Assembly: GCA_903927025.1 (NCBI GenBank) | Contig: CAIYLG010000056.1 | Span: 1-35,251, forward strand | Direction of reading: 5' to 3' | Length of the DNA stretch: 35,251 bases | DNA from: an uncultured Armatimonadota bacterium | GTDB taxonomy: Bacteria; Armatimonadota; Fimbriimonadia; Fimbriimonadales; Fimbriimonadaceae | Shown: positions 4,133 through 35,251 of the stretch, piece after piece | Layout of the letters: every line of letters starts with the position of its first letter | Numbering within the stretch: position 1 is the stretch's first letter | Notes under the pieces: model-generated | What the model was told of the DNA's origin: nothing | Databases searched by the model: none | Seen by the model: only the letters and a program-made list of their open reading frames with translations | Made by a program: the position numbers and the translations under genes

Positions 4133-5049
4133 AACACCTGTCTCCTCGCCCAACAACCTTTATTGAAGTTTCCGAAGCGATTCCCCGCTCGGAGCTGCGC
4201 ATCGTGCTTGCTTCAGAGACGTTTCAGCACACGGGCAGCTTCAAGTACCGAGCGGCCTATCAAGTGGCGCGAAACGCCCCGCATTCACACATCATCACCG
4301 CGTCTTCTGGCAACTACGGCCAGGCATTGGCACTTGCCTGTCGTGTGTTTGACAAGCTTTGCACTGTAGTCATGCCAAATACGTCGGCGAAGGTGAAGGT
4401 GGATGCCGTGGCCAGTCACGGGGCTACCGTGGATCTGATCGACGTTGCCAGCATTTCCCGCGAAGATCGCATCGCGCAACTGGCGGCGGAGTATCCAAGC
4501 GCTTACATCACAAGTGCCTTCGACGACCCTTGGGTCATTGCTGGCAACTCGACGCTGGGAACTGAGATTCTTGAAAAATATCCGGAAGTCCAAAGCATTA
4601 TCGCTCCTGTCGGAGGGGGTGGACTTACTTCCGGTATCGCAAAGGCCGTCCAGGAACATAACAGAAGCGTTCTCGTGATCGGAGCAGAACCGGCCATGGC
4701 AAACGATGCATCGCAATCGCTAAAGGCGGGAAGGCTCATTTCGAATGAGCAGGAACCCCAGACCCTTGCCGATGGTGCTCGTACCCGAAGTCTTGGCAAG
4801 CGGAATTGGGAGATCCTCTTCACACAGGGAGGAATGGCAGAAGTGATCGAGGTGAGCGAGGAGACGATCTGCGAAGCGGTTCGTCTGCTCTTCCTAAAGG
4901 CTAACCTTAAGGTTGAGCCAACCGGCGCGTTGGCCTTTGCGGCCGTGCTCTCCAACCCGGAGAGATTCATGCACGGCGGACTCGTGTGCTGTGTAGTGAG
5001 CGGCGGAAACGTGGACCCACACGTGTACAGCCAGATTCTAAGCGGCTAG
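4129..5049 (+). CDS. Threonine-dehydratase-like PLP enzyme (fold type II)
   Basis: This is probably a serine/threonine dehydratase or a relative such as threo-3-hydroxyaspartate ammonia-lyase or serine racemase. The Schiff-base lysine is K39 in 'TGSFKYRAA'. The substrate loop is 'SSGNYGQA' at 59-66, the phosphate-binding loop is GGGGL at 162-166, and a C-terminal 'SGGNVD' is present. At 306 aa it matches the catalytic domain alone, with no ACT regulatory domain, so feedback-regulated biosynthetic IlvA is unlikely. The TTG start at 4129 overlaps the TGA of the acylase gene (ATTGA), so the two are probably translationally coupled; a hydrolase releasing an amino acid that this enzyme then deaminates is a possible link, by inference only. 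Its TAG shares a CTAG with the convergent pump gene. Confidence 0.88.
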
Positions 5050-8000
5050 TTTCTAGCCGATTTGGATTCAGACAGGAAGTACAACACGGGAACAGCTATT
5101 CTCGAGAGTAGCGTCGAAGCGATTTCTCCTGCCATTAGAGCAATAGCCAATCCCTGAAAGATCGGGTCAAAAAGGATCACAAACGAACCCACGATGACGG
5201 CTGCCGCCGTCAGCAGCATCGGCCGGAACCGGATCGCGCCAGCATCCACCACCGCTTGCTCAAGGGTAGACCCTTGTCTTCGCCTCAATTCGATGAAGTC
5301 GACAAGGATGATCGAGTTTCGAACGATGATTCCAGCTCCCGCAATGAATCCGATCATGGACGTCGCCGTAAAGAAGGCTCCCATCATCGCGTGGGCGGGC
5401 AGGATGCCTACGAGAGTGAGCGGGATCGGCGCCATGATGACGAGCGGTGTTTTGAAGTTCTGGAACCACGCCACCACGAGGATATAGATGAGCACCAGCA
5501 CCGCGGCAAAGGCGACGCCAAGGTCTCGGAACACCTCATAGGTGATATGCCACTCGCCGTCCCACTTCATTGCTGGCTTGCTGGTGTCCTCCGGCAAGTG
5601 AGTTGATAGGACGTTCAGCTTGATCCCTTTGGGGAGCTTCAGCTTGTCAATCGCCTCATCCATCTTGAGAATCGCATACACCGGGCTCTCGTGCTTGCCC
5701 ACCACGTCGCCGGTTACGTAGACGACTGGCAGAAGGTTCTTGTGATAGATGGTTTTGTCCGTCGGGACCTCTACAAGAGAGACCAACTCAGTTAGAGGCA
5801 CCGGACCTCCTTTTGAAGAATGAACTCGGATGCCAGCAAGCTTCTCCAATCCGCTTCGTTCCGCTCGAGGGAGGCGAAGAATGATGGGGACGTCTTCTCT
5901 CGCCGATTCATCGTGAAGGAGACCCACCGATGATCCGGCGAGGGCAATTGTAAGCGCTTCGCTCGCGGCCTGAACGCTGACTCCAGAGGCGGCCGCCTTC
6001 GTATCATCAACTTTGAGGTTGGTGGTGGACTGGTCATCATCCATGTACCAATCGACATCGGAGACTCCTTCGGTTGTATTGAAGACTTGCTTGATTTTGG
6101 TTGCAGTGTCGAGCCGACTCACTGAGTCTGGGCCGTAGACCTCCGCGACAAGCGTCTCCAGGACAGGGGGGCCGGGAGGAACCTCCGCGACCTTGATTCG
6201 CGCCCCCAATTGGCTCGCAATTCGTGCCAAATCTTCGCGGATGCGTCGCACGATGTCATGGCTCTGTGCTTTGCGATCCGCTTTGTCAACCAGGTTCACC
6301 TGGATGTCCGCCTGGTTAGAACCGGCACGCGTAAAGTAGTGACGAACGAGGCCGTTGAAGTTGTAGGGACCGGATGTTCCGGCATAGACTTCGCAGTCGG
6401 TTACCTCCGGGATCATTCGTGTATACGCCGCCAGAGTTTGGGCGGCGGCAGCCGTTCGCTCAAGGGTCGTGCCAGTAGGCATGTCAACGATGATCTGGAA
6501 TTCGTTCTTATTATCGAACGGAAGCATCTTCACGGTGACGGCCTTAATACCGACGAGCGCCATCGCTCCAAGAAGCATGGCGAAAACGGAACCAAAGAAC
6601 ACCGTCCTCACCTTCCATGAGCGGAGAAGGGGAGTCATGATGCGCCGATAGAGGCGAGTCAGCCCATCCTCCGGACCATCCTCGTCATGAGCATGCCTTC
6701 CGCTCCGTGAATTCTTGAGAATTCGTACCGCCGCCCAAGGGGTAACGATAAAGGCGATGAGCAGTGAGAACAGCATCGCCGAAGAAGCGCCGACTGGGAT
6801 TGGCCGCATATAGGGGCCCATCAAGCCACCGACAAATGCCATCGGCAGAATCGCGGCGATGACTGCGAACGTCGCTAGGATTGTGGGATTTCCAACCTCG
6901 TCCACGGCGGTGATTGCGGTCTGAATGGGCCCGGCTTCCTTGGCCGCCGGCATGCGAAGGTGGCGGACAATATTCTCGACGACTACGATCGCGTCATCCA
7001 CGAGGATACCGATCGAGAAGATCAGAGCAAAGAGGGTGATCCGGTTAAGTGTGAAGCCATACAGGTAGAAGACCAGAAGCGTCAGCGCCAACGTGACGGG
7101 GATAGCCACCAGAACCACCATCGACTCCTTCCAGCCTAGGACCAGTGCGATGAGCAGCGTTACCGATAAGACGGCAATGCCCATGTGGACTAGGAGTTCG
7201 TTCGATTTCTCCGCAGAGGTTGCCCCGTAGTTCCGAGTCGGGGTGACTTCAATATCGCTCGGAATAAGGGTCCCTTTGAGCGTGTCGAGTTTCGCCATGA
7301 CCGCGCCGACGACGTCTATCGCGTTCACACCCTGCCGTTTTGCGATGCTGAGGGTCACGCCGGTTTCGAACTTGGGTGAGCTTTGTGGCTGGGAGCGAGA
7401 GGTGAACTGAACATAATTGCCCGGTTCCTCCCCACCATCCGAAAGGGTCGCAACTTCGTTTAGGTGAATGGGATGACCATTTGAAACGCCGACAGTGCAT
7501 GCTTCCAAATCTGGCTGGGAAGAAAAGAACTGTCCACCACGAATGACCTTCTCTTGGTCTGATGAGGAAAATTTCCCCGAGACCTCGGAGTGATTCGAGC
7601 GGCTGATCGCGGCGGCGACATCCGAAGAAGTGAGGCCAAATCCAGCGAGCCGAGCCTGATCTAGGTCCACTCGCAGCTCTCGCTTTCTCCCCCCGATAAT
7701 TGCGGTCTCGCTCACATTGGGAACGCTCTTGACCGCTTGCTCAACCCTTAGGGCAACTTGGCGCAGAGTCACCGCGTCGACGGTGTGGCTATGAAGCGTT
7801 AGAGCGAGGATCGGCACATCGTCGATGGAGCGAGGCTTGATAATTGGCAGCGAGGCTCCAGGAGGAATCAGGTCGTAATGGCTTTGAATCTTTTCGCGAA
7901 GTCGAACTAGGGCTCGCTCCTGGTCCTGGCCGACCAAGAACCGAACGATGACCATTGACTGACCCGTGGTTGTGGTGGAGTAAACGTACTCAACGCCGGG

Positions 8001-8237
8001 TATCTCCCAGATGAGCTTCTCCAGCGGAGCCGTGACTCGCGTTTCCACCTCCTTGGCGGAGCTTCCGGGCATCGCCACGATCACATCGGCCATTGGCACG
8101 ATGATCTGAGGCTCTTCTTCGCGGGGAATTCGCAAGACGGCAAATCCACCCATGAGCAACGATGCAAGGATGATCAGCGGCGTCAGCTTGCTGTTGATGA
8201 AGGCGCCAGCTAGCCTGCCGGCAAGCCCGGTTTTCAT
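5046..8237 (-). CDS. RND-family efflux transporter permease (AcrB/HAE1-like)
   Basis: This inner-membrane proton-driven pump has 1063 aa, the usual RND length. It shows an N-terminal membrane segment, a periplasmic loop, a cluster of membrane helices, a second periplasmic loop and a C-terminal helix cluster. TM4 carries the paired proton-relay aspartates in '[17 protein letters not shown]'. The opening '[14 protein letters not shown]' matches the family's 'P..e.P.i' pattern after TM1. It lies downstream of its adaptor with an ATGA overlap (8234-8237), so the two form an operon. No TolC-type outer-membrane channel gene is nearby. Drugs or amphiphiles are likelier substrates than metals, but the sequence does not settle it. 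Confidence 0.95.
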
Positions 8238-9706
8238 CGCTGGTCAGCCTCAACACGCTTACCATCAGCGACGGTGTCGATGTGGTCTGTGACGATCCGC
8301 TCGCCTTGCGATAGGCCGGAAAGAATCTCAATAGAAGGGCCCTGTGGCTTCCCAAGTGTGACGATTCGTAGCCGAGCGATGCTTTTGTCATCAAGGACGT
8401 AAGCGTAGTGGAGACCTTCGCGCTCCCACGTTGCAGAAGCAGGGATCAAGATTCCCGCTGAAGTGGTGATCGGTATGAGCGCCTTGCCATACATTCCAGA
8501 CCGGAGCCAGGAAGGATTTCCAACAGAAAGCTTGACGATGTAGCTGTGGGATGTGGCGTCGCCTTGAGGCACGATGTCCAATACCTTTCCAGTCGTGGAC
8601 TTGGAATTTAGCAATACGGACAGCTTCTTGCCCTTTGGCACTTGGGCAAGCATGGTCTCGGGAACGGAAGCTTCCAGCAGGTAATCGCCCCCTTCAATAT
8701 CCAAAAGTGGGGAGCCAATCGTCGACATCGAACCCGGGTCGGCCAGGCGATGCACCACACGGCCAGCATATGGCGCGAAAACCTTTGTATAAGAAAGTCC
8801 AATCTGCGCCGCGTTGAGGCTCGCGGTCGCCTGTTCTCTCTGGGCATTGGCCACCGCCAAATCCTTCATGCGAATCTGAGTTAGAAGCGCATCAGCCTTC
8901 GCTTGGCTGAGAGCGGCGCGGGCCAGATCAATGGCCGCTTTCGCGCGCACCACGTCCTCTTGAGCGCCCCGAATCTCCTGAGAACGGGAGCCTTCAATCG
9001 CCATCTCCTCGGCTTGAGTGGCCGAGTCTCTGTGGGATTTGGCGACGTCATAGCGGTTCTGCGCAATGTCCAGTTCTCGCCGAGAGATGGCTTCGTCTGC
9101 GGCAAGGCGCTTCGCGCGGTCGAGCTCCTTCGAGGCAAGCAACAGGTTGGATTCTGCCTCTTGTGCCGCCAGATGCGCTTGGGCCAACTCTTGCTTTCGC
9201 GCGCCCTGCTGCACTTGGTCGCGGTGCGCAATTGCGGCCGCATGGATAGCGACTGCCTGCCTCACATGCGCTTCTGCCTGAGCAATTCGGGACTGGCTCG
9301 TCCGCGTCTCAACCTCAACCGATGTTTGCGCCCGATCTACACTGGCGCGAGCGGCCTGCAAAGCTGCGCTGCTGGAGGTGGAGGACGCCGCGAGTTCTCG
9401 ATCATCGATCGTGACCAGAAGCTGTCCAGGCAGAACAGTGTCGCCTTCGCGGACGTTCACGGCAGTGACTGTTCCGACCGCTTTGGAGGCTAGGGCAGAA
9501 TGGAGCGAGGCCCTCACGGTGCCACTCGCCTCGAAGTTGACCCTCACCCGCCCAAGTTCGACCTTGGTCACGCTCGCGTGCACGGTCACAGGCTCAGGAG
9601 CACGTGGTGATTCAGTTTCGGGTTTCCCGCAACCTGATATCCATAGAGTTGAAACCCCAACTGGGATCCAACGCACCATGCTTACAACCGACTTTGTCCT
9701 GAACAC
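8234..9706 (-). CDS. RND efflux adaptor lipoprotein (membrane fusion protein, HlyD/AcrA type)
   Basis: This periplasmic adaptor links the RND pump to an outer-membrane channel. A lipobox (ISGC, Cys26 from the GTG start at 9706) indicates lipid anchoring. An ATG at 9679 would give a shorter, also plausible signal peptide. A lipoyl half-motif (around '[19 protein letters not shown]') is followed by an unusually long Ala/Gln/Arg-rich coiled-coil hairpin (about residues 110-310). The second lipoyl half ('[17 protein letters not shown]') and beta-barrel domains come after it. The long hairpin resembles adaptors that reach a distant channel. It is the first gene of the two-gene pump operon and overlaps the permease by 4 bases. 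Confidence 0.93.
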
Positions 9707-23563: not shown

Positions 23564-25744
23564 CTAATTTTTGATTGGGTCGCCAAACAGAACGCCACGA
23601 CCGTTTGTACCAATGTAAACGCGTCCATAAATCCTTGGGTCTCCAACGATCTGGTCCATCGTGCCAAACCCATGCTGTGCGTCGGTGAGGCAAATCCAAG
23701 TGCTGCCTCCATCGTCCGACCGAAAAGCCCCTTGGAGGCTGCCAATGGCCGCAATCACATAGATGCATGGCTCGGATTTTCCAGGTGCGGCCATTCCAAG
23801 ACCAACCGTTGAAACCAGAGAAAGGCCGTCAATCTTCTTGAACGACTTGCCTCCGTCTTCTGAGTGCATCAGAAAATTTCCACTTGCGAGCCACAGATCA
23901 CCTTCTCGATGAGATGCCACGCGCAACATTTCGCCACCCGTTGGCAGATTGATCGACGCCGCTGTGAAGCTAGCTCCCCCGTCTACGCTGCGGAAGATGT
24001 CGCCGTGACGCGGGTCAAACGCATAGAACGTCTTTGGATTCACGCGATCCGAGAACACTCGAAAGCCGATTTTGCATCCTTGGCACAGGGTCCAAGTTGC
24101 TCCATGGTCGGTTGAAACGCTAGGCGCCAGCCGTTCCGGGTTCCAGACGAAAGTTGCGCCGTCTGAAGATACGGCGATATGACCTCCGCCGCGCGCACCC
24201 TTAGGTTCAGTAAGGAACGGCGTCCACGATTTGCCGCCATCGGTCGAAAATCCTCCGGACTTCGAGCTGCCTCCGCCGCGCCCCACTCTTGCCATCGTCA
24301 TTGGATTGCTTTCGGCAAAGTCGATGCTGTCTGTGTTGTTGAACAGTGGATTGGTTGCCATCCCGTCCGGTGGGACCTTGGTGAGGTCGTCATGGCGAAA
24401 TCCGCCGATGTCCCCAAGTCCGGAAAATAGGTGCGCCCCGACAGGAGGACTTACTAAGTCGATCGAAGCGGTTTCTTCGAGTCCCTGGGCGCGAACTGTC
24501 CAATGCGTCGCTCCCCCGTTGTCGGCGGCGGATGCGTCTGAACAGCCCCAAATCGTGGCACCGGTTCCGTAAACGACGGTGTCAGGATGGTAAGGGTCAA
24601 TTGCCACCGTGCCCATCCACCAGCCGAACTTCGGCGACTTTTGGCCCCAGTTCAGGAAAGGTGACCCTGAGCTGTCTAGCTTTGCAGCGTCCTTCATCCC
24701 GGTCCAATGCGCCCCGCCATCGGTCGTGCGAAACACATCGTCGCCTAAAGACCACCGGTCCAAGGTTGTAACCGCCATTGTCCCTGGGTGCTTAGCGTCT
24801 AGGCTGAGTCCGGCATATCCAAACCCCTTTCCGGCATCGGGTGTGATGTTCGTCCAAACGTCTGACTTAGGATTCAACTTCCAAACGGCACCATCCGAAA
24901 TCCCATTGGGACCCGGCCCGTTGGAGTAGGTGAGGATGAGAGAGCCAGTGGTATCAAAGGCCGCATGGTGCGGAATCAGGTTGGGTTGCCCAGGTACCGC
25001 CGACCAAGATTTTCCAGCATCACGAGAGCGAAACAGGTGAGTGCCCTTCCCAGCCGCACCGGCGTAAATGTCAGGGGTAGCAGACTGCTTCCGACCGGAT
25101 CGGGTGTCAAAAACCTCAAAGCAGATTCCGATTCCATCGGTATGGAGCTTGATCGGGAATTCATCCTGCTTGGTCCATGTTGCTCCAAAATCCGAACTTC
25201 GCCAAAGACCGTTGTCTCGGGAACCAAAGTAGAGGATGTTCGGCATGTTTGGATCCACTGCGAGGCGCTCGCCGATTGAGCGGCCATCCATGTTTCCTCC
25301 CATCTTGAACGGCATGTCGGTCCTCTGGAAACTTCTGCCTTGATCAGAGGATCGAAGGATTGCCCCATTGCCGCCCCACTCGTTGGTGTAGGTGCCTGCG
25401 GCAATATACAGTCGCTTAGGATTGGTCGGGTCGAGTCCGATGCTTTCGACGCCGTAGAGGTTCCAATCGGGTCGCTGAATCCAGTCCATGAGCGGGATCC
25501 ACCGCTTTGTTTTGGGGTTCCATCGGTACGCACCGCCAATGTCCGTGCGTGCGTAGACCAAATCAGCTTGGGCCGGGTGATAGAGAATTCCGCTGACGAA
25601 GCCTCCCCCCACGATCTCGACGTTGTTCCATCGGTACGGCTGACGGGTCACTTTGGGCAGGTCCGCCCGGACCAGACACGCGAGTGACACCGCTGTCGCT
25701 AAGAGGATGCTCTTCGTTGAAATACTCATCTTCGCACCTATCAT
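23564..25744 (-). CDS. GH74 xyloglucanase
   Basis: This is a secreted endo- or reducing-end-acting xyloglucan hydrolase with a double seven-bladed propeller. The 726 aa start with a signal peptide (ATG at 25744 or, six codons in, 25729). The GH74 signature is clear: 'WNNVEIVGGGFVSGI', 'YARTDIGGAYRW' with candidate catalytic Asp68, 'GNMDGRSIGERLAVDPN' and repeated 'WRSSDFGATW'/'SVDGGASF' Asp-box turns. The second catalytic Asp is probably in 'GGHIAVSSDGATFVW'. No carbohydrate-binding or dockerin domain is appended. It faces a mannanase/xylosidase/galactosidase unit across a 147-base divergent region, matching xyloglucan breakdown. Confidence 0.93.
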   Translation of the reverse strand: MIGAKMSISTKSILLATAVSLACLVRADLPKVTRQPYRWNNVEIVGGGFVSGILYHPAQADLVYARTDIGGAYRWNPKTKRWIPLMDWIQRPDWNLYGVESIGLDPTNPKRLYIAAGTYTNEWGGNGAILRSSDQGRSFQRTDMPFKMGGNMDGRSIGERLAVDPNMPNILYFGSRDNGLWRSSDFGATWTKQDEFPIKLHTDGIGICFEVFDTRSGRKQSATPDIYAGAAGKGTHLFRSRDAGKSWSAVPGQPNLIPHHAAFDTTGSLILTYSNGPGPNGISDGAVWKLNPKSDVWTNITPDAGKGFGYAGLSLDAKHPGTMAVTTLDRWSLGDDVFRTTDGGAHWTGMKDAAKLDSSGSPFLNWGQKSPKFGWWMGTVAIDPYHPDTVVYGTGATIWGCSDASAADNGGATHWTVRAQGLEETASIDLVSPPVGAHLFSGLGDIGGFRHDDLTKVPPDGMATNPLFNNTDSIDFAESNPMTMARVGRGGGSSKSGGFSTDGGKSWTPFLTEPKGARGGGHIAVSSDGATFVWNPERLAPSVSTDHGATWTLCQGCKIGFRVFSDRVNPKTFYAFDPRHGDIFRSVDGGASFTAASINLPTGGEMLRVASHREGDLWLASGNFLMHSEDGGKSFKKIDGLSLVSTVGLGMAAPGKSEPCIYVIAAIGSLQGAFRSDDGGSTWICLTDAQHGFGTMDQIVGDPRIYGRVYIGTNGRGVLFGDPIKN

Positions 25745-25818
25745 TGCCCAGAAATCGGGCTTCAGGGCTATGATTTACCAATATATCAGCTGAAAAGTGC
25801 CCTTGTATCGGGTGAAAT

Positions 25819-25836
25819 AGCTAGAGTGCTCTAACT
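25819..25836. promoter_or_regulatory. Candidate operator between GH74 and GH26
   Basis: AGcTAGAG-TG-CTCTAaCT is an 18-base inverted repeat with one mismatch per arm, placed centrally in the 147-base divergent region. Size and layout fit a LacI- or GntR-type repressor site controlling both directions, although the centre is TG rather than the usual CG. No regulator gene lies nearby. Confidence 0.35.
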
Positions 25837-25891
25837 TGAGCGGACGTTGCTTTTAGGAAGGTAGCGGGCCGCCTGGGAGCAAAAGAATCTC

Positions 25892-27283
25892 ATGCTCATC
25901 CCGATCTTGTGCGCAGCTGCACTCCTTTCGGCTTCCAGGGACCAGACACCTGGTTCAGTTCATCTAGAAGCTGAAGACGGTGAATTGGTGGGCACGTCCG
26001 TGAGCACCGCAGGTGCCGGATTTTCTGGCAAGGGCTTTGTCACGGGGTTTGTCTCGTCCACTGCCAAGGTCATCCTACGGTTTTCGGCTAAGCCGGGGAT
26101 TTACGAAGCCAAGATCCGGTACTCATCCCCTTCTGGACCCAAAGGGTTTGGCGTCCGCGTGAACGGCCACTCATCCTCGGGCATGTTTCCCAAGACTGGT
26201 GACCGATTCGAAGTGATCTCGGCAGGCAAGGTCGAACTATCCGGCCAAAATGAGCTCGAGATCGAACGAGGCTGGGGCTATTTCAATGTGGACAGTGTCG
26301 ATTTTGTCCCTTCAGTGGTAAATCACCAGATGAAACCGCTCCCGGGGCGACTTGCCGATCTGAAGGCAAACGATTCCGCTAAATCTCTTTACGGCAGGCT
26401 GTCGCAGTCTTATGGGCATCGCACGCTTTCTGGCCAATACGATGCTGGCGAAAACTATGGCATCGCGGTGGCAACCGGAAAGACTCCCGCGATCTACGGT
26501 GGGGACTTCATGGATTACTCGCCTTCGCGCCTCAAGCATGGAACTCACCCCGAAGGAACGACTGAGGCTGTGATCAAGCAGGCAAAGGCTGGCCAAGCCA
26601 TCACTATGTCCTGGCATTGGAATGCCCCAACTGACCTTTTAGACAAGCTGATCACCGATGCAAAAGGCAACCATGTGGATCTCCGTTGGTACAAGGGCTT
26701 TTACACTGACGCCACCACATTCGATCTCGCGAAGGCACTGGATGACCCAAAGTCTGAGCGCTATTCAATGTTGCTCAGTGACATGGATGCAATAGCGGTC
26801 CAGCTCAAAAAGTTTCAAGATGCCGGCGTTCCGGTGCTATGGCGCCCCCTTCATGAGGCGGAGGGCGGTTGGTTTTGGTGGGGAGCAAAAGGGCCCAAAC
26901 CGTTCATCAAGCTGTGGCGAATCATGTTCGACCGATTCACCAGAATCCACCGCCTCCACAATCTGATTTGGGTCTTTACGGTCGGAGACAATCCCGATTG
27001 GTATCCGGGAGATGAGTTTGTGGACGTCCTCGGGATCGACGCCTATCCCAGCGACCACTCCGATGCGTTGAACCGCAACTGGGAATCGCTTAAGGCACAG
27101 TTTGATGGTCGGAAGCTGCTTGCCATCAGCGAGTTTGGCGGCGTGCCAGATATCCCGCGCATGCGGCGTTTTGGGGCGGAGTGGGCCTACTTTGTATCTT
27201 GGACAGGACAGATAAAACCTCCGGGGACTTCCACACAAGACCTCAGACGAATTTACAGTGATACGGGAGTTCAGAACCGATGA
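25892..27283 (+). CDS. Secreted CBM-GH26 beta-mannanase
   Basis: This enzyme endo-hydrolyses beta-1,4-mannan or glucomannan outside the cytoplasm. From ATG 25892 a short signal peptide (about 1-15) leads into a jelly-roll carbohydrate-binding module of CBM35/CBM6 type (about 22-140; 'VHLEAEDGELVG', 'YFNVDSVDF'). The GH26 barrel follows (about 160-463). The acid/base is Glu322 in 'WRPLHEAEGGWFWWG', the nucleophile is Glu414 in 'AISEFG', and 'SGQYDAG' and 'MSWHWNAP' are family motifs. GGGAGC lies upstream. Its TGA overlaps the GH31 start (ATGA), so the genes form an operon. Confidence 0.93.
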   Translation: MLIPILCAAALLSASRDQTPGSVHLEAEDGELVGTSVSTAGAGFSGKGFVTGFVSSTAKVILRFSAKPGIYEAKIRYSSPSGPKGFGVRVNGHSSSGMFPKTGDRFEVISAGKVELSGQNELEIERGWGYFNVDSVDFVPSVVNHQMKPLPGRLADLKANDSAKSLYGRLSQSYGHRTLSGQYDAGENYGIAVATGKTPAIYGGDFMDYSPSRLKHGTHPEGTTEAVIKQAKAGQAITMSWHWNAPTDLLDKLITDAKGNHVDLRWYKGFYTDATTFDLAKALDDPKSERYSMLLSDMDAIAVQLKKFQDAGVPVLWRPLHEAEGGWFWWGAKGPKPFIKLWRIMFDRFTRIHRLHNLIWVFTVGDNPDWYPGDEFVDVLGIDAYPSDHSDALNRNWESLKAQFDGRKLLAISEFGGVPDIPRMRRFGAEWAYFVSWTGQIKPPGTSTQDLRRIYSDTGVQNR

Positions 27284-29601
27284 AGTTCAGCGATGGCAAT
27301 TGGATGATGCGGAAGGGTGTCACGCCCTACTATGCGGCGGAAGCTTATGATGTTGAGGATCGTGGGTCCAGCCTGCGCGTGTATGCGCCTTCGCGCCCGA
27401 TCCGTCACCGTGGTGACACCCTTGAAGGACCGCTGCTCACGATCGAACTCGATTCTCCGATGGCGGACGTGATCCGAGTCAGCATGGTCAATCTCACTGG
27501 CTCGGACTCAAAGGGGCCAAACTTTCCCCTCGCCAGCCAAGAGGGATTCGAGGTTTATGCGGCCGTATCGGAAGAAATCTGCAGCCTTACAAGCGGGAAG
27601 CTCACCGCAAAGATCGATCGCAAGCGATGGAGCATCGACTTTTTGGCCCACGACGGCTCAGTAACCCATAGCCCAGATCGTGGAATGGGCATCATGAAGG
27701 TAGAAGGCGAAGGGCATTACATGATGGCCCAGCTCACCCTCGGGGTCGGCGAAGCAGTGTACGGCTTTGGCGAGCGATTCACTTCGTTTGTCAAGAACGG
27801 TCAAGTGGTGGACACTTGGAATAAAGACGGCGGTACCGGCAGCGACCAGGCCTATAAGAGTGTGCCGTTCTACATGACCAGCGCGGGTTACGGCGTGTTC
27901 GTCAATCACCCTGGCGATGTTTCTTTCGAAGTCGCTTCTGAAAAAGTCTCTCGGGTTCAGTTTAGTGTTGCCGGCCAGTCTCTGGAGTACTTCGTCATCT
28001 ATGGCCCGACGCCAAAGGAGGTTCTGCGAAAGTACACCCAGCTCACAGGACGCGCCGCGCTTCCTCCAGCTTGGTCGTTTGGTCTCTGGCTCACCACCTC
28101 GTTCACCACCAGCTACGACGAGCAGACCTGCACTGAATTCATTCAGGGCATGGCGGACCGAGATCTTCCGCTCCATGTCTTTCATTTCGACTGCTTCTGG
28201 ATGCGCGAATTCAACTGGTGCGATTTCACCTGGGATCCGCGGACTTTTCCAGATCCAGTGGGAATGCTCAAGCGGCTCAAAGAGCGCGGGCTCCGGATCT
28301 GCGTTTGGATCAACCCGTACATCGGTCAAAGATCACCCCTATTTGCGGAAGGGAAGGAAGGTGGCTACTTCATCAAGCGTGCCGACGGAAGCGTGTGGCA
28401 GACAGATCAGTGGCAGCCAGGAATGGCAATTGTTGACTTCACGAATCCCGCCGCAGTCGAGTGGTATTCCAGCCATCTCCGTCGCCTGATGACAATGGGG
28501 GTCGACTCGTTCAAGACCGACTTCGGTGAGCGTATCCCCACCGACGTTGTCTACTTCGATGGCTCTGACCCGGAGCGGATGCACAACTTCTACCCGTACC
28601 TCTACAACGAAGCCGTGTTCAACGTTCTGGAGCGGGGAAGAGGCAAGGGAGAGGCGACACTGTTTGCCCGCTCTGCCACCGCGGGATGCCAAAAATTTCC
28701 CGTCCACTGGGGTGGTGACTGCTACTCAAGCTTCGAGTCGATGGCGGAAAGCCTTCGTGGCGGGCTCTCACTTTGTTTAAGTGGCTTTGGCTTTTGGAGC
28801 CACGATATTGGTGGCTTTGAAGGAACGCCGCCGGTTGAGGTTTACAAGCGGTGGATCGCATTTGGACTGCTCTCCTCGCATAGTCGGCTTCATGGAAGCT
28901 CCTCTTACCGAGTGCCTTGGGTCTATGACACCGAAGCAGTCGATGTCCTTCGCTTCTTTACGCGGCTGAAGTGTCGCCTGATGCCTTATCTGTTTGCGTC
29001 TGCGGTTGAGGCGTCGCAAACAGGAGTGCCGGTCATGCGAGCGATGGTCTTGGAATTCCCTCATGACCCCGCCTGCACCACGCTGGACCGTCAGTACATG
29101 TTGGGCGATTCCCTCCTGGTCGCTCCGGTACTGTCGACTGATGGAAGCGTCACCTACTACTGCCCAGCCGGCGACTGGACGAACTTCCTCACGGGAGAAG
29201 TGATATCGGGTCCGGCTTGGCAAAAGGAGAAGCATGGCTTTCTCAGCGCGCCGCTGCTCGTAAAGCCAAACTCGATACTGGCGGTTGGAGAGGAAGACGA
29301 CAAGCCAGATTACGACTATGCAGGCCAGGTAACCCTGCGCATTTATCAGCTTGAAGATGGCGGATCTGCCAGCACCATCGTTCCGACTCTCCTTGGAGAG
29401 GCCGCGCTGACTGTCACTGCGAGTCGTGCAGGAGATCAAATCTCTGTTCACGTAGACGGCAAAGGCAACTGGAAGCTCCTGCTTATCGGAATCGATTCCG
29501 TGGGCGATGTTGCGGGAGGGGCAGCGGCATCTTCCTCGGATGGAACGCTGATCTTGCCCAGTGCGTCGCACGTCGAAATTAAACTCGATAAGGTGAAATA
29601 G
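27280..29601 (+). CDS. yicI: GH31 alpha-xylosidase (YicI type)
   Basis: This probable intracellular enzyme removes the alpha-1,6-xylose at the non-reducing end of xyloglucan oligosaccharides. The 773 aa match E. coli YicI (772 aa) in length and in motifs: nucleophile Asp414 in 'FKTDFGERIPTDV', acid/base Asp480 in 'VHWGGD', plus 'HFDCFWMREFNWCDFTWD' and 'GFWSHDIGGF'. There is no signal peptide, unlike the glycosidases on either side, so substrate must be imported. The ATG overlaps the GH26 stop by 4 bases. A 45-base gap separates it from the GH2 gene. Confidence 0.95.
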   Translation: MKFSDGNWMMRKGVTPYYAAEAYDVEDRGSSLRVYAPSRPIRHRGDTLEGPLLTIELDSPMADVIRVSMVNLTGSDSKGPNFPLASQEGFEVYAAVSEEICSLTSGKLTAKIDRKRWSIDFLAHDGSVTHSPDRGMGIMKVEGEGHYMMAQLTLGVGEAVYGFGERFTSFVKNGQVVDTWNKDGGTGSDQAYKSVPFYMTSAGYGVFVNHPGDVSFEVASEKVSRVQFSVAGQSLEYFVIYGPTPKEVLRKYTQLTGRAALPPAWSFGLWLTTSFTTSYDEQTCTEFIQGMADRDLPLHVFHFDCFWMREFNWCDFTWDPRTFPDPVGMLKRLKERGLRICVWINPYIGQRSPLFAEGKEGGYFIKRADGSVWQTDQWQPGMAIVDFTNPAAVEWYSSHLRRLMTMGVDSFKTDFGERIPTDVVYFDGSDPERMHNFYPYLYNEAVFNVLERGRGKGEATLFARSATAGCQKFPVHWGGDCYSSFESMAESLRGGLSLCLSGFGFWSHDIGGFEGTPPVEVYKRWIAFGLLSSHSRLHGSSSYRVPWVYDTEAVDVLRFFTRLKCRLMPYLFASAVEASQTGVPVMRAMVLEFPHDPACTTLDRQYMLGDSLLVAPVLSTDGSVTYYCPAGDWTNFLTGEVISGPAWQKEKHGFLSAPLLVKPNSILAVGEEDDKPDYDYAGQVTLRIYQLEDGGSASTIVPTLLGEAALTVTASRAGDQISVHVDGKGNWKLLLIGIDSVGDVAGGAAASSSDGTLILPSASHVEIKLDKVK

Positions 29602-29646
29602 ACTTATTGGGTACGTCTGCTCTTGTATCGCTCGACCATTAAAATC

Positions 29647-32427
29647 ATGAACCTCAGACTGTTCAGTCCGCTCACCCTTATCGCCGCCGCGATGTGCGCT
29701 TCTGCCGTCGCTTCGGCAGAAACTGCTGTCCGGCAGCACATCCTGTTTGACGACAACTGGAAATTCAAAACCGACCCCAACACCAGCATTGGAGGCAAGC
29801 AGATTGTCGACTGGCAGTGGGTTCCGGCGCCAGACGTCACTGATCTGGCTGTCCCCACTCTTCCAGATGCTCTTGCGAGCCAGGATTGGCGCAAGGGACA
29901 CGTCGGCGAGGATGTCTTCCACAATCGCTCGGGATTTGCCTGGTTCAAAACCACTCTTCCTGCTGGAATTTCCGCTGCGAAGGGCTCCAAGCGAGTCGTC
30001 CACTTTGACAGCGTGGACGACAACTGCGAAGTGTTCCTGAACGGCACGCTTCTCCTAAAGCACTATGTTTGGGACGATCCGTTTGATGTCGTCATTGACA
30101 GCGCGTATGATCCAAGCCGCGCCAATAGCCTGGTTGTCCTCGTTGAGAATACGGCAGGCGGCGGGGGAGTTTCGGGGCCAGTCGTCCTAACTTCTGCCAA
30201 GGATCAGGATCAACCCGAGTATGCCAAGCCAGCTTATAAGGACACTGCCTGGCGAACAGTTCACCTGCCTCACGACTACCTTCTAGAGGGCAAATTCACG
30301 CCAGCCGCCGATGCAAGTCACGGTTCGCTGCCACAAATCCCTGCGTGGTACCGAAAGACGTTCTCAGTTCCAACCGCCTGGAAGGGCAAAGAGCTTTCGA
30401 TCTCGTTTGATGGCGTCTATCGAAATTCCGTGATCTGGATCAACGGTCACCGACTGGGCAGGCACACCAGCGGCTACATCGGTTTCCAGCACGACCTCGT
30501 GCCGTACATCCACTACGGTGGCAAGAATGAGCTTTCCGTGTTTGTGGACCCACGCCAGTCTGAAGGCTGGTGGTACGAGGGGGCAGGCATCTACCGGCAC
30601 GTGTGGCTAGACATCACCTCACCGGTTCACGTCGCGCATGGCGGCACATTTGTGACGTCCAAGGTAAACGGAGTCAATGCCGTTTCAACGGTTGAGACGA
30701 CTGTTTCTAACGACACCGGGAAAGATAAGCTCTGCACGGTTTTGACCCAGGTGTTTTCCCCTGACGGTTCGAAGGTCGCCTCCAGCAGATCGACGCTACC
30801 CGTTGGAAAGTTCCATGCCAAGGCTGTTACCCAGAACCTCACAATTCCTAAAGCCCAGCTTTGGTCTCTTGAGTCTCCAAAACTCTATTCGCTTCACACC
30901 ACGGTTCTCCTTGGCGGCAGGACTGTCGACACCACCGAGACCAACTTTGGAGTCCGCACCCTTCGCTACGATGCGAAAACCGGCTTCTACCTAAATGGGA
31001 AGCCGGTCAAGATTCAGGGCACATGCAACCACCAGGATTTCATCGGAGTCGGCATCGGTATGCCGGACAGCGTGCTGGACTGGCGTATCAAGAAGCTCAA
31101 GGAGATGGGTTCCAACGCCTATCGCTGTTCGCACAACCCCGTTGCTCCTGAACTACTGGATGCCTGTGACCGACAAGGCATGCTGGTGATGGATGAGAAC
31201 CGTCACCTTGGAGAGGCGCTTGGTGGCAAGACGCCACATGGTGCCAAGTACGACGACCTCAGCGAACTGAGGGAGATGATCCTCCGAGATCGAAATCACC
31301 CCAGCATCATCATCTGGTCGATGTGCAACGAAGAACCGCTTCAGGGCTCTGACGAGGGCGGCAGGATCTTCGCCGCGATGATGAAGGAAGTCCACCGATG
31401 GGACACCACCCGCCCAATCTCCTGTGCCATGAACGGCGGTTGGGGCTACGGCATCACTTTGGTGGAAGACCTTCAGGGTGCCAACTACAACCCCAGCGGT
31501 TACGATGACTTCCACAAGAAATTCCCAGAGATGCCGTTCTTCGGCAGCGAAACCGCAAGCGCGGTCAGCACTCGGGGTGAGTATGTAAACGACCCTGTGA
31601 AGGGCTACGTGAGCGCTTACGATGTCAACGCTCCACCCTGGGCACAAACGGCGCAGGTGGCTTGGAAGGCCCTGGCTGATCGGCCCTATGCGGAAGGCGG
31701 CTTTGTCTGGACGGGCTTCGACTACAAGGGCGAGCCCACTCCCTATGGATGGCCATGCGTCAACAGCCACTTCGGCATCATCGACATGTGCGGCTTCCCC
31801 AAGGACAGCTACTGGTACTACAAGTCCTGGTGGGGCAAAGCCCCTGTCGTCCATGTGTTCCCTCACTGGAACTGGCCTGGCAAAGATGGCCAGAAGATTA
31901 ACGTCTGGGTTCACAGCAACTGCGACGAGGTTGAACTGTTCCTCAACGGCGTGAGCCAGGGCCGCAAGAAGATGCCTCATCTCGAGCATCTGGAGTGGAA
32001 TGTCAAGTATGTGCCGGGCACCCTGCTTGCGAAGGGTTACATCAATCACAAGCTGGTGACCACCGACAAGGTGGAGACCACCGGCAAGCCGGCAGCGATT
32101 GTGCTGAAAACGGATCGTAAGACGCTGACGCCTGACTCGGAAGACACGACCATGGTCGAAGTCCAAGTCGTCGACTCAAAGGGACGGGTCGTCCCCTACG
32201 CCAGCAATATGATCCATTTCGACATCAGTGGCGCCGGAGTTTGTCGAGGCGTCGGCAACGGCGACGCCAGCTGCCATGAACCCGACAAAACCAACCAGCG
32301 CTCCGCCTTCCACGGCCTGTGCATGGTGCTTGTTGGGTCAACAGACCGTAAGGGCAGCATCCACCTCAAAGCAACCGGAGCCGGACTCAAGTCCGCCAGC
32401 CTCGACTTCTTGTCGACGGCCAAATAG
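29647..32427 (+). CDS. Secreted GH2 glycosidase, probably beta-galactosidase
   Basis: This retaining glycosidase belongs to family 2. I start at ATG 29647 (926 aa), which opens directly into a signal peptide ending 'ASAVASA'; a TTG at 29623 would only add eight residues. Acid/base Glu562 is in 'WSMCNEE' and the nucleophile is Glu635 in 'FFGSETAS'. The C-terminus has Ig-like domains with 'NVWVHSNCDEVELFLNG'. Two sugar-binding jelly-roll-like segments occur in tandem before the barrel (about 60-170 and 230-325). Beta-galactosidase would remove galactose from xyloglucan or galactomannan; beta-glucuronidase or beta-mannosidase are less likely alternatives. It closes the hemicellulose operon and is followed by a terminator. 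Confidence 0.9.
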   Translation: MNLRLFSPLTLIAAAMCASAVASAETAVRQHILFDDNWKFKTDPNTSIGGKQIVDWQWVPAPDVTDLAVPTLPDALASQDWRKGHVGEDVFHNRSGFAWFKTTLPAGISAAKGSKRVVHFDSVDDNCEVFLNGTLLLKHYVWDDPFDVVIDSAYDPSRANSLVVLVENTAGGGGVSGPVVLTSAKDQDQPEYAKPAYKDTAWRTVHLPHDYLLEGKFTPAADASHGSLPQIPAWYRKTFSVPTAWKGKELSISFDGVYRNSVIWINGHRLGRHTSGYIGFQHDLVPYIHYGGKNELSVFVDPRQSEGWWYEGAGIYRHVWLDITSPVHVAHGGTFVTSKVNGVNAVSTVETTVSNDTGKDKLCTVLTQVFSPDGSKVASSRSTLPVGKFHAKAVTQNLTIPKAQLWSLESPKLYSLHTTVLLGGRTVDTTETNFGVRTLRYDAKTGFYLNGKPVKIQGTCNHQDFIGVGIGMPDSVLDWRIKKLKEMGSNAYRCSHNPVAPELLDACDRQGMLVMDENRHLGEALGGKTPHGAKYDDLSELREMILRDRNHPSIIIWSMCNEEPLQGSDEGGRIFAAMMKEVHRWDTTRPISCAMNGGWGYGITLVEDLQGANYNPSGYDDFHKKFPEMPFFGSETASAVSTRGEYVNDPVKGYVSAYDVNAPPWAQTAQVAWKALADRPYAEGGFVWTGFDYKGEPTPYGWPCVNSHFGIIDMCGFPKDSYWYYKSWWGKAPVVHVFPHWNWPGKDGQKINVWVHSNCDEVELFLNGVSQGRKKMPHLEHLEWNVKYVPGTLLAKGYINHKLVTTDKVETTGKPAAIVLKTDRKTLTPDSEDTTMVEVQVVDSKGRVVPYASNMIHFDISGAGVCRGVGNGDASCHEPDKTNQRSAFHGLCMVLVGSTDRKGSIHLKATGAGLKSASLDFLSTAK

Positions 32428-33163: not shown

Positions 33164-33683
33164 ATGCTCAAGTGCCGTGATGTCATAGTATTTGTACCGC
33201 TCGTATTGGCCAGTGCAATCGGCGTGATTTCTTTGCGAAGAGTATCTATTTCCGCTCAGCTCGGCGACTCTCGGTCAGCGGACGGGGGGGCAAATTGAGG
33301 AGGCACTACCCCGAAAAGGCACCAGAATTGCTCTGCCTGACAAAGACTATTTTGGCAGAAAAATCCAGAAAATGGCACAAAGGCCAATTGTTTCAATGCC
33401 ATCTTGTGAGTCCTGCACTTCAAAGCACATAAACTGGAGCACGCTTCGCTCCTTAAGTCGAGCGCAAACGGTTTTAGTGTTTTCGGAGTTGCCACGTGGA
33501 ACCAACAACGACTTGCGGTCGGATAGATTTCTTGTAATTCTGGACGATAAATCCCCAGTGTTGCCGCCGAAACTTCACGCGGTGGGTCCAGTGTGCGTCT
33601 GGATTGATCAGATGAATATAGTTACGGGTGGAACTTTGACATTTGCCCTTGATGCGGCTCCACTGAGGTCTAGCAGGCTTTGA
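33164..33683 (+). pseudogene. Membrane-anchored thioredoxin-like gene broken at a G7 tract
   Basis: ATG 33164 (AAAGG 7 bases upstream) opens a 44-codon frame with one membrane helix ('VIVFVPLVLASAIGVISL') that stops at TGA 33296. The frame one base later continues without a break to TGA 33681. The switch point is a run of seven G at 33284-33290: with six G the product would be one 172-aa protein. That product would have an N-terminal anchor, a strand-rich lead-in ('GTRIALPDKDYFGRKI'), a CxxC in 'PSCESCTSK' (Cys81 and Cys84), and a likely cis-Pro in 'VGPVCVWID' (Pro142), which is the thioredoxin pattern. The second part alone could start at ATG 33372 but would lack its anchor. Sequencing error, true decay and slippage-controlled expression are all open. 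Confidence 0.65.
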
Positions 33684-34237
33684 GCACTCGAGCATTCAGT
33701 TTGCTGGAAACGATCTCCTGCGTTGCCATCATCGCAATTGTAGCCGCACTGCTCACGCCTGTTTTTAGAAGTGCGAAGCTTGCTGGCCAGGTTACGGCGA
33801 GTGTGTCTAACTTGCACCAGATGCACCTTGCATTGTTGCTTTACCAAGCAAAGCAAGGAGAATCATCAGATGCAAACTCCATCTCTGCAATGGGGTTTCC
33901 AACTGTCTATCAACTTGACGGATTGGGACTGCCGGCCAAAGTTTGGAAGTCCCCTTGCGGGCGGAACCCTAGCTGGTTTCCAGCTCCGATCACTAAAGAG
34001 TATGAGTACTTCGCATCCACAAGCTTAACTCAGTTTGATGATGCATATCGCCATTTGCATGACAGAACCACTATGTTTATTGATATGAATTGTGCTGAAC
34101 ATGGCGATCCACTTATTAGTGACTATATTCCGCATAGAGCCCTAGGAGTTCAAATGTCTGGGGCCCTACTCAGACTACTAAAGCCTGGGGACTATATGTT
34201 TCAAGCTTGGTGGGCCGATAGCGAATCGCAACATTAG
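33680..34237 (+). CDS. Small pseudopilin
   Basis: TTG 33680 overlaps the stop of the thioredoxin-like gene (TTGA), giving 185 aa. The leader MSTRA is followed by mature 'FSLLETISCVAIIAIVAAL' with Phe+1 and Glu+5, so prepilin peptidase should process it. After the helix, 'NLHQMHLALLLYQ' matches the 'n.kqi.la...Y' region of related pseudopilins. The head domain has two cysteines ('SPCGRN', 'DMNCAEHG') that could form a disulfide, and it lacks the DGH ending of the larger pseudopilin at 18755. Base composition is more A+T-rich than in the housekeeping genes. Position suggests a shared operon with the thioredoxin-like and cysteine-rich proteins. Confidence 0.85.
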   Translation: MSTRAFSLLETISCVAIIAIVAALLTPVFRSAKLAGQVTASVSNLHQMHLALLLYQAKQGESSDANSISAMGFPTVYQLDGLGLPAKVWKSPCGRNPSWFPAPITKEYEYFASTSLTQFDDAYRHLHDRTTMFIDMNCAEHGDPLISDYIPHRALGVQMSGALLRLLKPGDYMFQAWWADSESQH

Positions 34238-34254
34238 AAATCGAGGAGAATTGA

Positions 34255-34560
34255 ATGAAGAAGACAATGGTTGTTTGCTTATCTTTCGTTATTGGCGCAG
34301 GATTGGCCTGGACCGATACTGGAAATCAGCCTTGTCCACCTGAGTCCTCCTTCTGCCCATGTGGGACCAATACTCTTGTCTCAGCAACACCTTGGTGTTG
34401 CAAAATGAGCCTTAACGGGTGCGCGCAATGGACGCTCAAGAAGTTCAACTGCAACACAGGATCAGGTTGCGCAGCGTCCACTGGTTATTACACGTCAGCT
34501 TCAGGCAACCCTGACTCTCCCTCCTGTGATCCTGGCAATGTGCCGTACTGTCACCCTTAG
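34255..34560 (+). CDS. Secreted cysteine-rich peptide (10 Cys)
   Basis: I know no family for this 101-aa protein. ATG 34255 has an excellent ribosome binding site (GAGGAG, 34243-34248, 6 bases away). A signal peptide (about 1-19, 'VVCLSFVIGAGLA') precedes a mature part of about 82 residues with ten cysteines, including a CxC (FCPCG) and a vicinal pair (PWCCK), and many Gly, Ser, Asn, Thr and Pro. The even number of cysteines and export point to five disulfides or metal binding. The thioredoxin-like gene two positions upstream would be a natural folding partner. It could be a surface adhesin tip, structural peptide, toxin or signal; the sequence does not say. Confidence 0.8.
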   Translation: MKKTMVVCLSFVIGAGLAWTDTGNQPCPPESSFCPCGTNTLVSATPWCCKMSLNGCAQWTLKKFNCNTGSGCAASTGYYTSASGNPDSPSCDPGNVPYCHP

Positions 34561-34586
34561 TTCTTGATGGTCGACTTTAAGAGACA

Positions 34587-35135
34587 ATGAGTGGTAATTC
34601 TCGAGTTTTGATTGTCGTTGGTGGAATTGCCGTATGTGGCCTGTTGTTCTGGCTCAAACCACCCCGGCGGACTATAGCAGATGTCGCTAAATCGACAACT
34701 GGTTGTATACAACGACGGGACGCAGATTGTGTTTTCGATTCAATACTTGAAGACGAAAGGCAGGCTCTTAACCTAACACCAAAGAAAATACAAGTCCTAC
34801 TTGACAGTTACGTGTTGCCCTGCTACGCCGATAGGCTTGGTTCTCCTAAAGTAGTTGCAACGCAGAATGATTCCCAGGGCACAGCAGAATATGGTGAGAT
34901 CTGGGAACGACCTAATCATAACAAGTTAATAATTGCGACAACTGCGGCAGCAACAGAACTTGGTCCGAGAACCATATGCTTGACCCAGTGGTTAATTTAT
35001 AATGCGATTGATGCTAAATACAGGGTGTCGCCAGAAGAAGACAAAGTCCGCCTCTACCGCATTGGGTTACAACGAGATAGCCAAACATTGATCAAGTTAG
35101 GATTTATGGGTATTGACCTGTTCCCCGTAGTTTGA
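34587..35135 (+). CDS. Membrane-anchored protein with four periplasmic cysteines
   Basis: I do not recognise this 182-aa protein. ATG 34587 has a weak AAGAGA upstream. One N-terminal helix ('VLIVVGGIAVCGLLFWL', about 7-23) followed by 'KPPRR' suggests a signal anchor. The outer domain has Cys in 'TTGCIQ', 'DADCVF', 'VLPCYA' and 'RTICLT', enough for two disulfides, and mixed helix-strand character. The TGA at 35133 coincides with the apparent left end (TGACCC) of an insertion sequence, so the natural C-terminus may be longer or different. It is the last gene of the cysteine-rich cluster. Confidence 0.72.
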   Translation: MSGNSRVLIVVGGIAVCGLLFWLKPPRRTIADVAKSTTGCIQRRDADCVFDSILEDERQALNLTPKKIQVLLDSYVLPCYADRLGSPKVVATQNDSQGTAEYGEIWERPNHNKLIIATTAAATELGPRTICLTQWLIYNAIDAKYRVSPEEDKVRLYRIGLQRDSQTLIKLGFMGIDLFPVV

Positions 35136-35251
35136 CCCACTTGAAGTGTGAAATCCGTCTGGAATCACATGAAGAAAACTGGCAAGCGCTACACCGAGGA
35201 CGAGATCCTGAAGGTGTTGAAGGAAATCGAAGCTGGCGGCGCGATAGCGTC
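35133..35251 (+). mobile_element. Left end of an IS3-family insertion sequence (partial)
   Basis: The probable terminal repeat begins TGACCCACTTGAAGTGTGAA at 35133, of the TGA-starting type seen in the IS407/IS3 group. It is followed 36 bases on by the start of an OrfA-like reading frame. The right end and any target duplication are outside the window. Confidence 0.6.
35169..35251 (+). CDS. IS3-family transposase OrfA, N-terminal part
   Basis: The frame from ATG 35169 to the window edge reads MKKTGKRYTEDEILKVLKEI and continues EAGGAIA. This matches the helix-turn-helix start of IS3-family OrfA proteins (MKK.R.TeeqIv.iL.e.eaG), which bind the IS ends. The C-terminal part and the frameshifted OrfB with the DDE integrase domain must lie beyond the window. 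Its ATG sits about 36 bases inside the apparent element end, the usual distance. Confidence 0.75.
   Translation, partial: MKKTGKRYTEDEILKVLKEIEAGGAIA

Follow-up and report, generated by a model that had tools for sequence, protein, structure and literature searches.

A putative xyloglucan and mannan locus of an uncultured Armatimonadota bacterium with predicted secreted trimming enzymes, a predicted cytoplasmic YicI-type alpha-xylosidase and no linked importer

The closest described routes for bacterial xyloglucan use differ in where the side chains are removed. In Ruminiclostridium cellulolyticum, according to the available part of that report (PMC4780118), xyloglucan oligosaccharides enter through an ABC importer that is essential for growth on xyloglucan, after which a cytoplasmic beta-galactosidase acts first and an alpha-xylosidase and a beta-glucosidase then act in turn. 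The affinity of that importer's binding protein for XXXG is approximately 10 times its affinity for XXXG mixed with galactosylated forms (PMC4780118); given such a preference, it would make sense to trim the oligosaccharides before uptake. In Xanthomonas, the accessible text proposes that galactose is removed before xylose in the periplasm, behind TonB-dependent transporters (PMC8245568). Therefore, the removal of galactose before xylose, which a preliminary description of the locus studied here had regarded as an unusual order, was already in print for both organisms.

The locus lies in a window of 35,251 nucleotides, by which we mean the whole stretch of DNA that was analysed. Neighbouring genes of prepilin-like type and one match of 62% to a Fimbriimonadaceae MAG (L151) fit an Armatimonadota (Fimbriimonadia-like) origin. 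Its four genes were confirmed where the preliminary description had placed them (23564-32427), with GH74 on one side and GH26-GH31-GH2 running divergently from it. The GH74 gene (23564..25744, minus strand) was identified as a xyloglucanase gene by phmmer, and its product is predicted to be secreted from its N-terminal hydropathy. A 147-nt intergenic region (25745..25891), presumed to hold the promoters, separates it from three tightly packed plus-strand genes (25892-32427), which encode a predicted secreted CBM35-GH26 enzyme (25892..27283), a predicted cytoplasmic YicI-type GH31 enzyme (27280..29601) and a predicted secreted GalA-type GH2 enzyme (29647..32427). GH26 and GH31 overlap in ATGA, and 21 nt separate GH31 from the GH2 open reading frame; therefore, the three genes very probably form one operon. 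The GH2 start is likely the ATG at 29647, 24 nt inside an open reading frame that begins with TTG. A search for operators found no inverted repeat of at least 8 nt in the 147-nt region between GH74 and GH26. Pfam or NCBIfam scans of 25 proteins of the window identified no importer family, in agreement with the earlier claim that the locus has no transporter; the only transport genes recognised encode an RND efflux pair (5046-9706). Pfam gave no match for seven of these proteins, including the products of four small open reading frames that follow the locus (33372-35132). One of the four (34255-34560) encodes a short protein rich in Cys whose N terminus resembles a signal. What looks by eye like the beginning of an IS-type transposase gene occupies the contig end (window 35170-35251), and a repeat may be what broke the contig there.

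The best solved relative of the GH74 protein in phmmer searches was the beta-1,4-xyloglucan hydrolase 2cn2 (629 bits), and the oligoxyloglucan reducing-end enzyme 1sqj scored below it (434 bits); the predicted mode of action is endo. The GH26 protein combines the Pfam domains PF02156 and PF16990, carries a CBM35 and has as its closest solved relative the GH26 endo-beta-1,4-mannanase 3zm8 (342 bits). It is most likely a beta-mannanase, and we take the Glu residues in LHEAEGGWFWW and ISEFGG to be its candidate catalytic residues. The usual Pfam domains are present in both GH31 and GH2. The GH31 protein matches the YicI model NF007940 over its full length (residues 1-768; 1262 bits, cut-off 606), aligns with E. 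coli YicI structures from residue 1 and is 57% identical to an Atlantibacter YicI (L219) over 772 aligned positions. The motifs DCFW, KTDFGER and WGGDC, which we take to be those of the YicI active site, are identical in these two proteins. By its sequence, the enzyme is a YicI-type alpha-xylosidase, with its activity predicted; alpha-xylosides are the substrates of YicI. The GH2 protein passes the beta-galactosidase GalA model NF041462 (1014.9 bits, cut-off 900), and its NE and SET motifs, presumably catalytic, are common to 7cwd and 5t98. Beta-galactosidase is its likeliest predicted specificity, in line with the earlier suggestion that it acts on galactose. An insertion of approximately 140 residues in its N-terminal part (window about 29780-30210) also occurs in the copies of four relatives (G004, G012, G019 and L135 of G017) and is missing from a G017 paralogue that adjoins GH74 (L052). 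The mean pLDDT of the GH2 AlphaFold model is 56.6, and much of the barrel falls below 50, so the model was set aside.

Cell location was judged from the peak hydropathy of 10-residue windows within the first 50 residues, a heuristic rather than SignalP. The peak was 0.08 for GH31, compared with 2.40 for GH74, 2.67 for GH26 and 2.30 for GH2, so the predicted split between three enzymes with secretion-type N termini and one without held up. A signal-like hydrophobic N terminus was found in all six GH2 and all four GH26 proteins examined, the window included, and in none of the 13 YicI orthologues of the lineage, again counting the window. All 13 start directly with the YicI N terminus, and 12 of them were also placed in an N-terminal alignment; for two of the 13 (G009 and G001), the start was taken where YicI aligns, and their open reading frames extend a few residues further upstream. 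In the hydropathy scan, some orthologues peaked at 1.0-1.7, but these peaks lie within the domain, at residue 32. Neither the alignment nor the hydropathy scan revealed a hidden export signal on GH31, and such a signal is therefore unlikely, since the signal-free YicI N terminus is kept throughout while the GH2 and GH26 signals are retained, and the claim that GH31 lacks a signal peptide stands as a prediction.

The order GH26-GH31-GH2 is shared by the window and three further species of the genus (G004, G012 and G019). In these three relatives, a gene of M13 peptidase type lies upstream of GH26 (Pfam-checked in G012), whereas in the window GH74 directly adjoins GH26. In G019, a gene with 44.8% identity to the GH27-type enzyme of the source genome lies approximately 3 kb downstream of GH2. 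Another relative, G002, has GH74-GH31 beside a LacI regulator, and G017 carries two layouts: a GH2-GH31 (YicI) pair beside a LacI regulator and GH3 (L135 5801-10902), in which YicI has no signal, and a secreted-type PA14-GH31 with GH74, GH2 and LacI (L052 10918-13785). The alpha-xylosidase thus seems to occur on either side of the membrane within one genus. Across the 13 lineage YicI loci, YicI lies beside GH2, GH26 or GH74 in six and has no GH74, GH26, GH2 or GH3 near it in seven, one of which (L140) is cut at a contig end. For comparison, we used the best-scoring 80 YicI loci from other genomes among the matches listed, which are not a random sample. Within this set, 77 loci have neither GH74 nor GH26. 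GH74 is near YicI in two, an Opitutae MAG (L145), where it is divergent as in the window, and Virgisporangium (L205), where a CUT1 permease is present as well. In a third, a Bacillota MAG (L196 1135-15462), GH3, YicI, LacI (by eye), GH95, CBM35-GH26 and CUT1 permeases lie together, so GH26 is paired with YicI in another phylum too. The grouping of GH74, GH26 and GH2 with YicI is recurrent but not general, and the presence of GH74, GH95 and GH26 near YicI outside the lineage supports xyloglucan as the target.

Given secreted GH74, GH26 and GH2 and a cytoplasmic GH31, all as predicted, we agree with the preliminary description that oligosaccharides would need to be imported. However, a reading of the missing transporter as an anomaly did not survive comparison. 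Among the best-scoring 80 YicI loci elsewhere, 45 had a CUT1-like permease and one a GPH transporter within 8 kb, and 34 had neither; this test detects a permease only if it resembles one of the search probes. Restricting the count to the 59 loci whose flanks both reach 8 kb or more gave 34, one and 24, respectively. In the lineage, no CUT1 or GPH importer lay within 8 kb of any of the 13 YicI loci; in five of these one flank is shorter than 8 kb, and none of the eight with two full flanks had an importer either. Fisher values for the difference from the controls were 0.00009 for all loci and 0.0016 for those with two full flanks, with kinship ignored. In G005, a gene of the nucleoside-symporter family (MFS) lies approximately 2.5 kb upstream of YicI. 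An unlinked importer is thus common elsewhere and seemingly the rule in this lineage. Because none of the 13 loci has a linked importer, the case for one rests on genome content, and if our reading is correct, the lack of a linked transporter must not be read as a lack of uptake.

The source genome has 44 ABC permease-domain matches, 43 of them over the cut-off, and at least 15 CUT1-type permease pairs were found among the 20 loci compared. Since CUT1 systems are many and unlinkage is common, unlinked ABC importers are the simplest explanation for the absent transporter. SusD-like_3, the one SusD family searched, had no match in the genome, and the TonB receptor barrel, also searched as one family, had a single match, on contig C53 rather than on the contig of the window. 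A YicJ-like GPH transporter was considered and rejected, as the best MFS_2 match reached only 57.3 bits (contig C59); its neighbours by eye are a nucleotidyltransferase and a glycerol kinase. In four CUT1 systems of the source genome (L096, L097, L099 and L100), the binding protein and the first permease are seemingly fused into approximately 800 residues, and a similar apparent fusion in G017 (L255) is cut by the end of the stretch.

Three weak indications point to one CUT1 system, which spans 10560-13651 of contig C9, as a tentative candidate, which we do not claim as the importer. Its binding protein is the best match in the source genome to the YicI-linked binding protein of an Opitutaceae locus (L176; 335 bits, compared with 305 for the next protein of the genome). 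However, L176 fell outside all five of the genome's own paralogues in the tree of this family, so the link is not specific; the tree had 28 rows, L246 gave none, and the L237-L240 branch (length 4.19, odd make-up) probably reflects wrong-frame picks. For co-occurrence, the C9 protein alone was searched in 20 genomes of the genus, with at least 63% counted as present, so that G016 (57%) was scored as absent; the genomes were labelled by hand. Proteins of this type occurred in six of the 20 genomes, including all four with the GH26-GH31-GH2 cluster (Fisher 0.003) and six of the eight with both GH74 and YicI (Fisher 0.0007). The same six genomes also rank as the largest, and size and kinship therefore explain the co-occurrence equally well. 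In G012, GH95 lies near the C9-type importer; by eye, no GH95 was seen near it in the fetched stretches of the other four relatives or the source genome. The search by sequence for a transporter elsewhere in the genome thus yielded many CUT1 importers, but no particular one could be pinned down.

Overall, we favour, with moderate confidence, a model in which the locus serves xyloglucan and mannan through secreted trimming, import by an unlinked ABC system and YicI action inside the cell. The seven lineage loci in which YicI stands alone lower that confidence slightly. The host is probably diderm. GH74 would cut xyloglucan and GH26 the accompanying mannan outside the cell, where the oligosaccharides would be pared down towards XXXG by the secreted GH2 and by a GH95 fucosidase whose gene lies elsewhere in the genome. 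Uptake of the alpha-xylosylated oligosaccharides into the cytoplasm would follow through a CUT1-type ABC importer encoded away from the locus. There, YicI, which would take xylose off the non-reducing end, and a cytoplasmic GH1 beta-glucosidase would act by turns. Galactose would most likely come off outside the inner membrane, and xylose inside it. We infer the activities, the localisation, the co-regulation, the outer-membrane passage and the importer identity in this scheme. The source genome encodes a GH1 beta-glucosidase without a signal (TIGR03356, 513 bits, cut-off 478.5), three GH95 matches over the cut-off (two strong; the copy on contig C62 is signal-like), a GH94 enzyme approximately 2.3 kb from a CUT1 system and four GH3 enzymes; together with YicI, this set could be enough to dismantle XXXG inside the cell. 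Contig C52 encodes a GH42 enzyme without a signal next to a CUT1 system. The source genome also encodes two more GH74-like proteins, both distantly related, on C60 (L055 8770-11052; near a LacI-like gene, by eye) and C13 (L056 9469-10470), with identities to the window GH74 of 32% over nearly the full length and 39% over the C-terminal part, respectively.

The steps beyond GH74 could be divided differently. The N termini of all four GH3 enzymes are signal-like, although in two cases this holds only when an internal start is taken, and part of the beta-glucosidase activity may therefore lie in the periplasm. There, GH3 and/or GH31 enzymes that are secreted might break the oligosaccharides down to isoprimeverose, so that only this disaccharide is imported and then split inside by YicI; the G017 layout, with GH3, LacI, GH2 and YicI side by side, would suit this, as would the cleavage of isoprimeverose by R. 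cellulolyticum Xyl31A (PMC4780118). We nevertheless regard this route as unlikely, given that a GH1 beta-glucosidase without a signal exists, that none of the four GH3 enzymes reached a curated NCBIfam cut-off (their best models were xylosidase or arabinopyranosidase types), and that the xyloglucan binding protein of R. cellulolyticum, in the part of the report available, did not bind isoprimeverose (PMC4780118). Removal of alpha-xylose outside the cytoplasm is possible because the source genome also encodes a secreted-type GH31 on contig C20 (881 aa, with a signal-like N terminus and PA14), and G017 places a PA14-GH31 beside GH74, GH2 and LacI in the same genus. It is conceivable but quite improbable that all debranching is extracytoplasmic, by this GH31, GH2 and GH3, with monosaccharide uptake and YicI serving some other alpha-xyloside or alpha-glucoside. 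The seven lineage loci where YicI lacks GH74, GH26, GH2 and GH3 neighbours fit such a division, but the six with GH2, GH26 or GH74 beside YicI, and the GH74 neighbours in two other phyla, do not; moreover, the C20 enzyme has a different domain order and scored only 103.8 bits against the alpha-xylosidase model.

The substrate itself might also be read differently, with the operon aimed mainly at beta-galactosylated (galacto)glucomannan and xyloglucan as a companion substrate. CBM35-GH26 leads the operon, the GH27-type gene of G019 follows GH2, and, among solved structures, the C9 binding protein comes closest to MBP1 (4r9f, 158.8 bits), which presumably binds mannan sugars. However, YicI enzymes act on alpha-xylosides, and the GH74 and GH95 partners point to xyloglucan, which leaves this reading very improbable. 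Returning to the favoured model of outside trimming and YicI action inside, we speculate that the lineage may, as a rule, separate its polysaccharide loci from its importers and draw on a shared pool of related, unlinked ABC systems, with specificity residing in the secreted trimming by an enzyme encoded in one operon with YicI and not in a transporter of its own; as a general principle, this is rather unlikely.

The locus is real and partly conserved; its enzyme families are known, and their arrangement is somewhat new. We take PA14 to be the mark of the periplasmic GH31 of Xanthomonas and Cellvibrio, and the GH31 of the locus has neither PA14 nor a signal. Also missing is the linked TonB-dependent transporter of such loci, since the sole TonB_dep_Rec match is the one on C53; with that match and no SusD-like_3 in the genome, a SusC/SusD pair of the Bacteroidetes type was not found either. 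Compared with the E. coli-type yicJI pair, represented by Atlantibacter L219, the window has the YicI orthologue but no counterpart of the transporter-like gene (YicJ by position) that ends 3 nt upstream of YicI there. In the literature found on xyloglucan or transporters in Armatimonads and Fimbriimonas, a body with subscription journals mostly outside it, we met no description of this layout.

As in R. cellulolyticum (PMC4780118), xyloglucanases would be extracellular, GH31 and a beta-glucosidase cytoplasmic, import by ABC transporter and galactose removed before xylose, the two GH31 enzymes being likened by description rather than by sequence. In the available account of that organism, however, the beta-galactosidase is the cytoplasmic Gal42A, the beta-glucosidase is Glu3A and the ABC genes lie next to those for the enzymes, whereas here GH2 is predicted to be secreted and no ABC genes are linked. 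More broadly, in contrast to the Gram-positive locus for xyloglucan oligosaccharides, ABC genes lie beside the alpha-xylosidase in none of 13 lineage loci and GH2 is signal-like in six of six. Anaerocellum bescii (Athe_2052-2054), from what its report makes accessible (PMC12710961), similarly combines extracytoplasmic depolymerisation with ABC import of XXXG, although it is Gram-positive, its importer is known, and the likeness is again one of description and not of sequence. With the Xanthomonas locus, as partly available to us (PMC8245568), the present one shares GH74, GH31, an extracytoplasmic beta-galactosidase (predicted here), galactose before xylose (proposed here) and GH95 (unlinked here), but the former has two linked TonB-dependent transporters, GH35 and a periplasmic GH31, and the latter a YicI-type GH31, predicted to be cytoplasmic, and no linked transporter. 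The biochemistry itself is ordinary, as is the order of the two steps; the new part seems to be their division by the inner membrane. If this is correct, the locus would represent a third layout for bacterial xyloglucan use, with galactose removed outside and xylose inside, that sits between the TonB systems, with their periplasmic debranching, and the ABC systems, in which debranching is cytoplasmic.
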